NCBI GenBank assembly: GCA_001683905.1
Contig: LXQK01000170.1
Location: 12,511 to 62,024, forward strand
Source: Marivirga sp. ANT-B6
GTDB lineage: Bacteria > Bacteroidota > Bacteroidia > Cytophagales > Cyclobacteriaceae
Length of the DNA stretch: 49,514 nucleotides
Reading direction: 5' to 3'
Each line of letters begins with the position of its first letter. Position 1 is the first letter of the stretch. The notes under the pieces were generated by a model that had not been told where the DNA came from, made no database searches, and saw nothing but the letters and a program-made list of their open reading frames with translations. A program made the translations under genes and the position numbers. Positions 41,088-46,843 of this stretch are shown piece by piece.

Positions 41088-42344
41088 TTAGCGGTTTGCC
41101 TTACTGATGACGAAGTTAGCGACCCATTGGTAGACGAAAATGGCAATCAGGAAAAAGAAGCTGATGAAATTGATGAGGATACCGTTCACCAGGCTTAACC
41201 ACAAAGCTAAAAGTCCTATGATAGCCGTAATTACTGTATAGGACACCAGAATTTGATCACTTCTCTTCGTCTCTCCGTTATACATACTTCCAATAGGGAT
41301 AAGCATCAATAATGAAAATCCTGCCAGGCCAAGCCAATGATCAGTGCTAAAGAACGCATAGATCAACAATGAAATCATAGCGACAAAAAGCAGGGCTCCC
41401 ACCAACCTCGCCACACGTTTTTCGCGGTTGGAAAGGGCATACTTACCATATGGATTAAGGAAGAGGAATAAATCATGGAGCGGGGACAGAAACCATGAGG
41501 AAAAGGCAAAGATAAACATCCCCACCATGATGGGTATCAGCACCGGCTGCAGCGAGCTATTGTTTTCAGCGGTACTTCGCAGCACTCTAAAAAGTACATA
41601 AAAGCCAATGATGAAGGCCCACTGAAGTTTCCCCTTCAGGTTGCCGATCCAAAAGCTGTAACGCAGGAACAGGCTGTAAATAAAGAACTTTGACTTCAAC
41701 GCTTCGATGAGCCCAGCTTTTGCATATTCGCTGTTGGGGTCATTTTTTAATGCTTCCTTAAAATGCACCAATGCCTTATCATACTCCCGCTTTTCAAGTA
41801 GTGTAAAGCCGAAATTAGCGTGTGTAAAGGCGTTATTAGGATCGGTTTCAAGGGCTGTATTTATTGTTTCATAAGCGGCTTCCTTGTCACCCAGCTTGCC
41901 CAAGGCAGCCGATCGGATATTGAGGCAGTTCAGGTTTTCCGGATCTACCGATAGCCCTTCATTAGCCATGCTTAGCGCATCTTTAAAATCTTTGCTATTG
42001 AGGTGAAGTTGCGCCTTGACGCCAAAATAATCAGCATTATAGGGGTTTAAAAGTATGGCCTCGTCTATTTTTGCCATAGCCAATATACTTTTACGAAGGG
42101 CAAAGTATATGCGTGCGAGCAAATGTATGGCGAAATCGTTCGCGGGGTTGATGGAAATGGCTCTTTCCACAGTTTCCTGCGCCAGAAGATATTCACCAAC
42201 GTTATATTTGCATAACGCCAGGAGAACCAGGGCTTCTTCGTTATTTGGCTCCTGTGAAAGTGCCACTTTAAGCTCACTTTCTGCGCGCTGAAAATTACTT
42301 TGCTCTATCAACAACATTGCCCGTTGCATTGCTGGCTCTACCAT
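41088..42344 (-). CDS. TPR-repeat protein with C-terminal polytopic membrane domain
   Basis: This 418-residue protein has about six tetratricopeptide repeats in the first 225 residues (for example NNEEALVLLALCKYNVGEYL and NAFTHANFGFTLLEKREYDK). About six membrane helices follow (about 240-410). There is no signal peptide, so the TPR part should face the cytoplasm. Its start overlaps the stop of the AAA+ gene (TAATG), so it is translationally coupled to that ATPase. The pair looks like an ATPase and its membrane receptor. Function is unknown. Confidence 0.78.
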   Translation of the reverse strand: MVEPAMQRAMLLIEQSNFQRAESELKVALSQEPNNEEALVLLALCKYNVGEYLLAQETVERAISINPANDFAIHLLARIYFALRKSILAMAKIDEAILLNPYNADYFGVKAQLHLNSKDFKDALSMANEGLSVDPENLNCLNIRSAALGKLGDKEAAYETINTALETDPNNAFTHANFGFTLLEKREYDKALVHFKEALKNDPNSEYAKAGLIEALKSKFFIYSLFLRYSFWIGNLKGKLQWAFIIGFYVLFRVLRSTAENNSSLQPVLIPIMVGMFIFAFSSWFLSPLHDLFLFLNPYGKYALSNREKRVARLVGALLFVAMISLLIYAFFSTDHWLGLAGFSLLMLIPIGSMYNGETKRSDQILVSYTVITAIIGLLALWLSLVNGILINFISFFFLIAIFVYQWVANFVISKANR

Positions 42345-43663
42345 TATTTCTTGATGTTTAAATAGGTGAGGATCTCATCGTAGAGACCTGATTCGTTGGC
42401 GTATAAAGCATAATTTCGGGCAGTACTAAACCATTCTAAGGTTGTGGCGCGATGTTTTTTGACAGCGTTCTTCAGGTCTTTGGTTAAAAGGGGAGCAGGA
42501 ACGCCGGTTTTGAAAGCCTCCGCCAATTTCTCTTCTATGGCCAGATCGATAACGGCCTCCAGGTCGGCACCAGAAAAATTATGCGTGGCCTTGGCAACAT
42601 CTTTATAATCTATGTTTTTGGCTGGTTTCTTTTGCAGTTTTACTTTCAGAATGGCCTCACGGCTAAGCTGGTCGGGAGGGGATACAAAGATAATGCGATC
42701 GAAACGACCGGGCCTTCGAAAGGCGGGATCGAGATGCCATGGTGCATTGGTGGCGCCCAGGATCAGGAGACCATCATTGTCAGACTCCAACCCATCGAGC
42801 TCTGCCAGGAACTGGTTAATCAGGTGCCGCCCTGCTGACTGCTTCATGTCGGAGCGATTGGCGCCGAGGGCGTCTATTTCATCGAAAAATAATACACAAG
42901 GACGGTGCCGGCGTGCTGTTTCAAAGATTTGGTGGAGGTTTTTTTCGCTATTGCCAATCCACATATCCAATACATCATTGATGCCAACACTCATAAATTT
43001 TGCCTTCACCTCACCCGCAGTAGCCCTGGCCAGGTGTGTTTTGCCGCAGCCTGGCGGTCCGTACAGTAATATGCCACCTCCTACCTTTTTACCGTAGGCA
43101 GCATATAGCTCCTTGTGCAGGAGGGGTTTGATGATCTTGAGGTCTATCTCATTTTTCACATGGTCTAGCCCGCCAACATCTTTGAAAGAGATATTCGGCC
43201 TTTCTACGGCTATGGCCGATGACGCCATTTCCTGGTCGTCGACCTGTTGCATGTCGGCCTGTAAACTTTGTTTCAGCCTATTTTCTAAAGCTTCATCATT
43301 TGCATTAGGGTCCAGTTGCAGCGCTTGCTGGTAAACTTCCGAGGCCTGCGCTTGTGCGCCATCTTCCAGGAGGGATCGGCTATATAAGAGTAATGCGGGC
43401 ACAGATGGAGGATTTTCCTTGATGAGGTCTTCCAGGAGAATAATAGCCGAAGAAATTTTGTTTAACCCTAAAAAGCAGCCTGCGAGACCTAGCTTGGAAT
43501 CCAGATCGCCAGGTTGTGATTTTAATATAATTTTAAAATGCCCCTCGGCCTCTTCAAAAGCTTGCTGCTGATACAGCAATCCGGCGATATGTTTGCGTAG
43601 CGGAATGTTATCAGGAGAAAATTGCAGCGCTTCCTGAAGAGCTTGAAGCTGGTTTTGATCCAT
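42344..43663 (-). CDS. TPR-AAA+ ATPase (CDC48/Vps4-like AAA domain)
   Basis: The 439-residue protein has N-terminal TPR repeats (about 1-130) and a single classic AAA domain. Visible parts are Walker A GPPGCGKTH (about 198), the pore-loop region MWIGNSEKNL with an aromatic Trp, Walker B CVLFFDEIDALG (about 257) and the arginine-finger segment AFRRPGRFDR. The C-terminal helical tail WFSTARNYALYANESGLYDE is typical of this bacterial group. It should act as an ATP-driven unfoldase or remodelling enzyme; the substrate is unknown. The ATG at 43663 is preferred, since the upstream TTG (43684) overlaps the promoter -7 element. Confidence 0.85.
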   Translation of the reverse strand: MDQNQLQALQEALQFSPDNIPLRKHIAGLLYQQQAFEEAEGHFKIILKSQPGDLDSKLGLAGCFLGLNKISSAIILLEDLIKENPPSVPALLLYSRSLLEDGAQAQASEVYQQALQLDPNANDEALENRLKQSLQADMQQVDDQEMASSAIAVERPNISFKDVGGLDHVKNEIDLKIIKPLLHKELYAAYGKKVGGGILLYGPPGCGKTHLARATAGEVKAKFMSVGINDVLDMWIGNSEKNLHQIFETARRHRPCVLFFDEIDALGANRSDMKQSAGRHLINQFLAELDGLESDNDGLLILGATNAPWHLDPAFRRPGRFDRIIFVSPPDQLSREAILKVKLQKKPAKNIDYKDVAKATHNFSGADLEAVIDLAIEEKLAEAFKTGVPAPLLTKDLKNAVKKHRATTLEWFSTARNYALYANESGLYDEILTYLNIKK

Positions 43664-43681
43664 TTTATCTAAGTAATGTTC

Positions 43682-43711
43682 CAAATTAGATTTATAATTT
43701 GATTGCGCAAA
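43682..43711 (-). promoter_or_regulatory. Promoter of the AAA+/TPR operon
   Basis: On the minus strand, a TTTG (complement of 43708-43711) lies 19 nt before TAATTTG (complement of 43682-43688), which is one T short of the -7 consensus. The position implies a short leader to the ATG at 43663. Confidence 0.45.
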
Positions 43712-43791: not shown

Positions 43792-43830
43792 GTGTACGAA
43801 ATCAGACATATGGTGTACGATATCAAACAT
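43792..43830 (+). promoter_or_regulatory. Tandem palindromic operator before the FtsX-type permease
   Basis: Two imperfect palindromes, TGTACGAAATCAGACA (43793-43808) and TGTACGATATCAAACA (43814-43829), are spaced exactly 21 bp apart, two turns of the helix. With flanking bases they share 16 of 18 positions. The form TGTnCG-N4-CnnACA resembles the paired sites of dimeric activators such as NtrC-type proteins. Confidence 0.6.
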
Positions 43831-43896
43831 CATTAGCTATATTAAATTCGCAATCATTTGTATATCAATACTTTAAATAGTGGTATAAAAATTGAA

Positions 43897-46344
43897 ATGA
43901 ATCAAAATAACCCTTTCCCTCATGCTATGTTATACCATACTCTCAAGCAAATTTTCCGTAGCCTTTGGTTAAACAAAAGTTTTACGCTCATCAATCTCTT
44001 AGGGCTTTCGTTGGGACTGGCAGTTGGCGTGCTTATCTTTTTGATCATTGACTATGAAAAAGGCTTTGATAAATTTCATACCAACCCTGATCAGGTTTAT
44101 AGAATTGTCAGTGAAAAAGTACAATCTGGAGAAACATCATATAGTGCGGCCGTACCGTATCCTACGGCCCAGCTGCTACGGGAGGAGTACGAAGGTATTT
44201 TCGCTACTCAAACTCACTTTGAAAAAAATATGGATGTAAGGATTAATGAAGCAGATCCTTTTAATGAAGCAGATATTCTTTTTGCTGATTCCATGTTTTT
44301 TCAGGTTTTGGATTTTGGCAAAATCGAGAACTTCTGGATGTTGGGGAATCCGACTAAGGCGTTGCTAAATCCTAATCAGGTTGTCCTAGCGGAAAGTACC
44401 GCCAGACGATATTTTGGGGCTGATAATCCCATTGGGAAAATGATTAAGGTGGATAACAACTATGAGGTTGAAGTAACGGGCGTCGTGAAGGATGTTACAA
44501 CGCTGAACCATCTGCCTTTCTCTATGATTATCTCTTATGCTACGCTCAATGATAAATTGCCGAATGGATTGGACATTCTTAACTGGAACTTTACAGCCGA
44601 AGGATATAGCTATGTCAGGCTAAAAGGTGACCCAAATAAGGATGCCACAGAGACCTCGCTAACGGCAATTATACAACGCAACGCCGATTCTGACTCCGGT
44701 AAGAAAGATCTGCTACACTTGCAGTCCATTGCCGACATCCATTTTGATTTGACCTACGAAAACGACAATCCCACCTATATTACCAGTGATAAATATCTCT
44801 CTATACTTGTGCTTTTAGGGACTTTTATCATTTTAATAGCTTGCGTAAATTACATCAACCTGGCTACCTCATTTGCCTTTAACAAATCGAAGGAGGTCGG
44901 TATTCGTAAAAGTATCGGCGCCTCGAAACAGCAGTTATTTTTTCACTATATGCTCGAGACCTTCGTGGTTACATTTTGTGCCACTTTGCTTGGCGTCGTG
45001 CTGGCCGTTGTGGCATTACCTTACATCAACCAGATTCTGGATAAGTCCATGGTCGTTACGCAGTTGATCAGTATACCCTTTATTGGTCGGGCGCTGGGGA
45101 TTATTTTAATCATTACGATCATTTCCGGTGTTTATCCCGCCATGATTCTTGCTGGCTTTAGCCCCATCACGGCGCTCACCAACAAGTTAGCAATGCCCGG
45201 AAAATCATCGGTCCTGCTCAGAAAGTCTCTGGTGATTTTTCAATTTACAATATCTACAGCCCTTATCATTTGCACGCTGGTCATAGCAAGTCAGATGAAA
45301 TATTTTCAAAATAAAGGGCTTGGGTTTAATAAGGATGCTGTTATAGAAGTATCGCTCCCTGAGCGGGATAGTACAAAAAGGGATGCCTTTTATACTTTGC
45401 TTCAAAAGCAATCCGCCATTAATGCCGTATCTTTTTGTCTGGGAGCTCCAATTTCCGGTAACGGGTTATCCACAAGTTTTCTCGCAGCAGACTTACCTGC
45501 CGAGATGGGTTACGATGCGGTAGTTATTGCCTGCGATAGGGCTTATAAAGATACCTACCAAATGCAAATGATTGCAGGTCGCTGGTTTCTGCCATCCGAA
45601 GAACAAAATATTGGCACTGCCGTGGTGGTAAACAGAACGCTGGCAAAGACAATAGGTTATGTTAACCCGGAAGATGCACTGGGTCAGTGGATCGGGCTTG
45701 GATTAAATGATATTAAACCTATAATTGTGGGTGTAACAGAAGATTTTCATACGACTTCCTTGCACATCAATATAAGGCCAGTGGCTATGACTCCCATTCC
45801 GTATTTCCATCTTTCCGCGGGGATAAGGATTAATCCAGGGGATTTGCAGGCAACATTAGCGGAAATTGAAGCCGCCTGGAAACAGGTGTACCCTGAGAAT
45901 GTGTACGAGGTTGCCTTTATTGACCAAACTTTGGCAGCTCGGTATGAACAGGAAAATCGGGATTACCAGGTTTTTAGAATCTTTTCCTTCATCTCTGTTT
46001 TGATCTGTTGCATGGGGCTTTGGGGTCTTATCGCTTTTGTAGTCGTGCGAAAAACCCGTGAAATTGGTATTCGCAAAGTTCTGGGAGCAAGCATAAGTGG
46101 CATTGTTATTTTAATTTCACGGGACTTCCTGAAACTTGTCGTTATTGCACTGGTGCTCTCGTCTACTATTGCGGGATATTTTATGCAAAATTGGCTGCAG
46201 AATTTTGCCTATGCAATAGAATTAAGGTGGTGGATCTTTGCGCTGGCAGGTTTTATTTCTGTGGTCATTGCTTTTTTAGCAATTAGCTATCCCGCCATTA
46301 AAGCAGCCATGACCAACCCTATCAACAACCTTAGAGTGGACTAA
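43897..46344 (+). CDS. ABC transporter permease with two FtsX/MacB_PCD units
   Basis: This 815-residue protein has an N-terminal membrane helix (FTLINLLGLSLGLAVGVLIFL), a MacB-type periplasmic core and three FtsX helices. After EVGIRKSIGASKQQLFFHYM, a second periplasmic domain and three more helices with KTREIGIRKVLGASI follow. These duplicated EIGIRKxxGAS loops are the coupling motifs that touch the ATPase. Such proteins export peptides, lipoproteins or small molecules together with an ABC ATPase, which is not next to it here. The frame is open from 43858 (TTG), but ATG 43897 or 43927 is more likely. The two operator-like palindromes lie about 70 nt upstream. Confidence 0.87.
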   Translation: MNQNNPFPHAMLYHTLKQIFRSLWLNKSFTLINLLGLSLGLAVGVLIFLIIDYEKGFDKFHTNPDQVYRIVSEKVQSGETSYSAAVPYPTAQLLREEYEGIFATQTHFEKNMDVRINEADPFNEADILFADSMFFQVLDFGKIENFWMLGNPTKALLNPNQVVLAESTARRYFGADNPIGKMIKVDNNYEVEVTGVVKDVTTLNHLPFSMIISYATLNDKLPNGLDILNWNFTAEGYSYVRLKGDPNKDATETSLTAIIQRNADSDSGKKDLLHLQSIADIHFDLTYENDNPTYITSDKYLSILVLLGTFIILIACVNYINLATSFAFNKSKEVGIRKSIGASKQQLFFHYMLETFVVTFCATLLGVVLAVVALPYINQILDKSMVVTQLISIPFIGRALGIILIITIISGVYPAMILAGFSPITALTNKLAMPGKSSVLLRKSLVIFQFTISTALIICTLVIASQMKYFQNKGLGFNKDAVIEVSLPERDSTKRDAFYTLLQKQSAINAVSFCLGAPISGNGLSTSFLAADLPAEMGYDAVVIACDRAYKDTYQMQMIAGRWFLPSEEQNIGTAVVVNRTLAKTIGYVNPEDALGQWIGLGLNDIKPIIVGVTEDFHTTSLHINIRPVAMTPIPYFHLSAGIRINPGDLQATLAEIEAAWKQVYPENVYEVAFIDQTLAARYEQENRDYQVFRIFSFISVLICCMGLWGLIAFVVVRKTREIGIRKVLGASISGIVILISRDFLKLVVIALVLSSTIAGYFMQNWLQNFAYAIELRWWIFALAGFISVVIAFLAISYPAIKAAMTNPINNLRVD

Positions 46345-46372: not shown

Positions 46373-46837
46373 TTATAGGTGGATGGTGAAAATGGTCGAT
46401 TCAAAGGGTGTACTGGTACAGGCTATCGCTCCATCTAGCTTTTCCACCGCTTTTTTAGTGATAAATAAGCCCAAACCAAAACCATTGGATTTGGTATTGC
46501 CCCGAAAGAAAATATCGTATATTCTGTCGCTGATTTTTTCGTCGATACCTTCACCGTTGTCTTCTACGGTAATAATCGTTTGTTGGTGATCTTTTTTTAA
46601 ATTGATATTAACGTAAGGCGCATCTTCATTCCAGCCGTAGTGCGACTTGAACCATTGCCTTTCTTTATCCGATAAAACGATCAGCGATACAGGCGTTTCA
46701 CAAATGGTTGCGGCATGATGATTTGGTTCCTCAAGATCTTCTTCTATAGGACTATCCAACAGGGAATAGCTTCTAAGGTTAGTTAATCTTTCTTCTTCAC
46801 GTTCAAGCACTTTAAGTCGGTGTTTGGAGGTTTCCAT
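46373..46837 (-). pseudogene. Internally deleted GAF-domain histidine kinase remnant
   Basis: The 154-codon frame joins two unrelated pieces. Residues 1 to about 71 look like the start of a GAF domain (EEERLTNLRSYSLLDSPIEED, then PVSLIVLSDKERQWFKSHYG). The rest is the end of a histidine-kinase ATPase domain: TVEDNGEGID (D-box), FFRGN, and FGLGLFITKKAVEKLDG (G2-box). The dimerisation domain with its phospho-acceptor His, the N-box and most of the GAF domain are missing. The junction near WNEDAPYVNI keeps the frame. It is therefore most likely a deletion product without kinase activity. Confidence 0.7.
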
Positions 46838-46843
46838 AAGCAC

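Follow-up and report, generated by a model that had tools for sequence, protein, structure and literature searches.

A predicted tandem enhancer and sigma-54 promoter before a duplicated FtsX/MacB-type permease gene in Marivirga sp. ANT-B6

Two near-identical palindromes located in front of a duplicated FtsX/MacB-type permease gene of Marivirga sp. ANT-B6 most probably represent a tandem enhancer for an NtrC-type bacterial enhancer-binding protein (bEBP), which would act on a sigma-54 promoter of this export permease. The whole stretch of DNA analysed here, referred to as the window, comprises 49,514 nucleotides (contig LXQK01000170.1, positions 12,511 to 62,024 of the forward strand). Copies of this control module stand in front of related export genes in many Bacteroidota, and on this ground the motif is regarded as real and a likely regulator family can be put forward.

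According to the mechanism proposed from these sequence comparisons, the palindromes would serve as tandem upstream activating sites for a bEBP of the response-regulator type (receiver, sigma-54 AAA+ and Fis-type HTH domains), predicted to be phosphorylated by a partner histidine kinase. Phosphorylated bEBP dimers would bind next to each other at the two sites, at a distance of two helical turns, and would assemble an ATPase ring there, with only some 50 bp left between the end of the sites and the -24 element downstream. The ring would then open the RpoN-RNA polymerase bound at 43881-43895, with transcription of the permease gene as the expected outcome. The permease itself is likely a single component of a tripartite ABC exporter, the ATPase and adaptor of which would be encoded elsewhere.

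Palindromes, sigma-54-like element and permease gene in the window

The predicted enhancer site 1 (43793..43808, forward strand; TGTACGAAATCAGACA) is a degenerate palindrome, TGTACG-AAAT-CAGACA, of a class enriched before export genes in relatives. Predicted site 2 (43814..43829, forward strand; TGTACGATATCAAACA) reads TGTACG-ATAT-CAAACA, and the start-to-start distance between the two is 21 bp. The sites are identical in 14 of 16 positions, or in 16 of 18 if one flanking base per side (G...T) is included. An earlier, sequence-only reading had described near-identical palindromes in 21-bp phase at 43792-43830, and its coordinates, spacing and 16/18 identity were all correct. This is the sole pair of 18-mers in the window with at least 16/18 identity at a distance of 18-26 bp; in 100 windows simulated with a Markov-1 model the mean number of such pairs was 0.01, i.e. 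about 1% of windows. The pair score of 21.2 is also the highest in the window, followed by 15.3. In both sites, the right half-sites depart from CGnACA in like manner.

The same reading saw no sigma-54 -24/-12 site downstream of the pair. This has to be revised, as a candidate element, TGGTATAAAAATTGA, is present at 43881..43895 (forward strand), 51 bp past site 2, at an offset conserved in related promoters. Its GG and TTG are correctly spaced, but A replaces C at -12, and the element is a weak one (TGGTA, TTGA). The probability of such an element at the favoured offsets was between about 0.0002 (local shuffles) and 0.004 (rate in the window). Overall, the module in the window ranks among the weak representatives of the enhancer/sigma-54 class. 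The divergent TPR/AAA+ ATPase gene (42344..43684, reverse strand), considered as context only, lacks a sigma-54 element on its side at the offset conserved in related promoters.

From TGGTATAAAAATTGA, transcription is predicted to start at about 43907, i.e. downstream of the ATG at 43897, which would exclude the latter as the start of the permease. The start was assigned to the ATG at 43927, not at 43858 or 43897, and orthologues begin at the equivalent residue. The gene (43927..46344, forward strand) encodes a protein of 805 aa with MacB_PCD and FtsX domains, each twice (Pfam PF12704 and PF02687). Its orthologues in genomes G030 (62%) and G027 (59%) are placed within operons, and the exact promoter of the window is not conserved there.

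Convergent with the permease gene is a histidine-kinase remnant (46373..46843, reverse strand), in which a GAF-like start, recognised by eye, is fused straight onto the HATPase domain, probably through an internal deletion. It had been suggested to be a possible relic of the original signalling partner, an idea that was not supported: the remnant matches the partner kinase family discussed below only weakly, almost exclusively within the HATPase domain, and elsewhere the genome encodes a kinase that properly belongs to this family. We judge the remnant to be probably unrelated to the promoter in the window.

Recurrence of the pair and the associated bEBP family

The exact 16-mer pair had no other occurrence with up to three mismatches in 60 genomes of the family. 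The degenerate tandem TGTnCG-N4-CGnACA, of which the sequence-only reading had taken both sites to be variants, was found across 241 genomes of the order at 82 places with spacing 20 and at 171 with spacing 21, against 5 and 3 places, respectively, for the reversed-pattern control (253 vs 8 in total, table entries summed by hand). It should be added that a search pattern demanding TGTCNG in the first site gave no matches and was too strict.

The association with FtsX-type permease genes, which the sequence-only reading had named as support, was seen repeatedly: in 18 of 51 pair loci an FtsX/MacB permease gene followed within about 110-300 bp downstream. Other loci were situated before genes for HlyD adaptors, ABC ATPases or OEP/TolC proteins, or before a PadR gene with a permease gene behind it. 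Sigma-54-like elements scoring at least 13, the weights having been chosen manually with the first examples already known, were at offsets 51-54 or 62-66 (9 of 140 offsets) in 33 of 44 cases. As several loci came from related species, the counts are not independent; with distinct sequences only, the proportion was 28 of 37. These two clusters of offsets are separated by one helical turn, with the window element belonging to the first.

A scan of named genomes revealed no close relatives, and none of the relatives searched was congeneric; the layout of pair and sigma-54 element recurred in Tenacibaculum and Xanthocytophaga. Three Tenacibaculum species (L305-L307) share a pair whose sites are spaced by 22 and which is followed by a sigma-54-like element at +63, which points to the module extending beyond the order. 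Pair matches in genus g103 (L210-L212) adjoin genes of small secreted proteins and are without a sigma-54 element; these are perhaps another motif or chance matches.

The orthologues of the window permease in G027 and G030 belong to adaptor-ATPase-permease arrays with 5 or about 18 permeases, which are divergent from genes of a bEBP and a histidine kinase; the pair is located between the two gene groups, and a sigma-54 element follows it at +53 on either side. The approximately 18 duplicated FtsX/MacB permeases of G030 (L157-L159; C1:5540000-5595000) form one tandem array, inside which the enhancer/sigma-54 module is repeated several times, at +53.

The bEBP family concerned (L156:16070-17422) contains receiver (PF00072), Sigma54_activat (PF00158) and HTH_8 (PF02954) domains. 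A strong pair, defined by a score above the 99th percentile of shuffles, was present upstream of 21 of 30 family members, 6 of 20 paralogues and 0 of 20 other bEBPs used as controls. The pair thus stands before the genes of one bEBP family, an association with one regulator family being likewise named as support by the sequence-only reading, and this family is the likely regulator. The same reading had also proposed the architecture of a cooperatively bound dimeric activator or repressor: two in-phase sites for a dimeric regulator are retained, while the choice of function is narrowed to a sigma-54 activator. Across 59 genomes, comprising that of the strain and those of relatives (counts ignoring shared ancestry), the bEBP family and the permease type of the window were both present in 41 and both absent in 13, with the bEBP alone in 4 and the permease alone in 1. 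All 13 relatives without the bEBP family were also without this permease type, and the single permease-only genome is the incomplete one of strain ANT-B6 itself.

Members of the family carry the recognition helix TR[AST][AS]LYRR. Paralogous bEBP genes (L267, L269, L276 and L277) are accompanied by a different tandem palindrome, GTTTCA-N3-TGAAAC, and in the three of these four that were read the helix is GRTTLYRK, not TR[AST][AS]LYRR. The loop by which such activators contact sigma-54, canonically GAFTGA, was G[AS]FTDA in all 27 family members read (L232-L261) and GxFTGA in 18 of 20 control bEBPs, and the -12 element of promoters of this class is TTG followed by any base, with C in 7 of 34. GAFTDA is listed among the variants keeping activity and occurs naturally in another EBP, DVU2106 (PMC4641369), so that the family may still contact sigma-54. 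In NorR, the corresponding loop substitution, G266D, allows escape from GAF-domain repression (PMC2941729).

Regulators of strain ANT-B6 and alternative readings

RpoN is encoded in the genome of strain ANT-B6 (G000:C42, PF04552, E 9.5e-57). The cognate bEBP family was not found in this assembly, which is 82.7% complete. The assembly contains two bEBPs, at C60 and C86, neither of which was accepted as the cognate regulator, since their recognition helices differ and their upstream regions lack the pair. At C74:14946-15854, the contig end cuts a kinase gene belonging to the partner family (53% to the L260 kinase). In G027, G030 and related loci, the bEBP gene lies immediately before that of the kinase, so the gap at C74 falls at the position expected for it. 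This is suggestive of, but does not prove, a location of the cognate bEBP gene in the unassembled part of the genome, by the C74 kinase.

One may alternatively regard the window promoter as a relic, i.e. an ancestral enhancer and sigma-54 element the regulator of which has been lost, the permease being silent or under another promoter. We consider this unlikely, even though the bEBP family is missing from the assembly, the -24/-12 element is weak and the half-sites deviate. The full layout is kept at three permease promoters of this genome, namely in the window (+51), at C148 (+51) and at C113 (+52); all three read TGGYA-N6-TTGA, and the -24/-12 elements of C148 and C113 are nearer to the consensus. 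A composite search of the genome at offset 51 with three mismatches retrieved only the window and C148, and the control gave 0. Furthermore, the partner kinase is present, albeit cut, and the reading frame of the permease is intact.

It is considerably less probable that the pair is the operator of a non-sigma-54 regulator, such as a PadR-type repressor, on a housekeeping Bacteroidota promoter. PadR genes do follow some pair loci (L207 by Pfam, L203 by resemblance only), but there PadR is a target gene and no constant partner, and no PadR gene was seen beside the permease in the window. The fixed offsets of the sigma-54-like element past the pair, and the position of the pair before bEBP genes, also argue against such an operator. 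Least credible is a chance direct repeat without function: the exact 16-mer pair is unique to the window among the 60 family genomes, but the simulated frequency is low, and the distances from the pair to a sigma-54-like element and to a permease gene are the fitting ones, as in the two other promoters of the strain. The tandem enhancer for a bEBP is the reading that we prefer, and we infer the binding, phosphorylation and activating role of the bEBP from the sequence relationships above.

Relation to published work and known systems

Sigma-54 promoters before FtsX-like permeases (COG0577) have been described computationally for Bacteroidia in a study presented by its authors as first evidence (PLoS One 2025, PMC12316311). 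A search of its text for 'palindrom' and 'upstream activat' gave no hits, and in the portions of the article consulted no enhancer or cognate activator was seen for FtsX-like permease genes. No publication on the enhancer of these permeases, on its phasing or on its regulator was found in the open-licence literature. An ordinary mechanism (bEBP enhancer and sigma-54 promoter) would seem to operate here in an apparently undescribed regulon.

These Bacteroidota encode strongly expanded sets of duplicated FtsX/MacB permeases, and we found no account of how they are switched on. With the enhancer motif, its constant spacing from the sigma-54 element and the activator-kinase family, the regulon can be listed directly in any genome, and the same set offers a route to the inducing signal; the helix-to-site code is testable in natural paralogues. 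More tentatively, there might be a Bacteroidota-wide sigma-54 network for these permeases, built of GAFTDA paralogues with separate enhancer codes (TR[AST][AS]LYRR with TGTnCG-N4-CGnACA, and GRTTLYRK with GTTTCA-N3-TGAAAC), short helix-phased enhancers and a relaxed -12 element (TTG-any). Perhaps the loop and the -12 element have co-evolved to produce this relaxed tolerance, which we offer as a hypothesis only.

Among curated models, the window permease matches both ADOP (TIGR03434) and DarB of the darobactin exporter DarBCD (NF038008) over nearly the full length, and the ATPase of the G027 operon likewise matches DarD. Every score was under the curated cut-offs (for the permease, 294 bits against 622 for ADOP and 167 against 700 for DarB), and neither protein is assigned to these families.

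NtrC, PspF and NorR exemplify the general arrangement, in which a -24/-12 element is preceded by two sites for activator dimers, the activator is an AAA+ protein with a Fis-type HTH and its gene is divergent; all these features are predicted for the present class as well. In contrast to these systems, the class described here has the motif TGTnCG-N4-CGnACA at a spacing of 20-22 bp and at fixed short offsets of 51-54 or 62-66, and in G027 and G030 one enhancer would serve two divergent sigma-54 elements. Its last -12 base is not conserved, and the activator loop is G[AS]FTDA, not GAFTGA.
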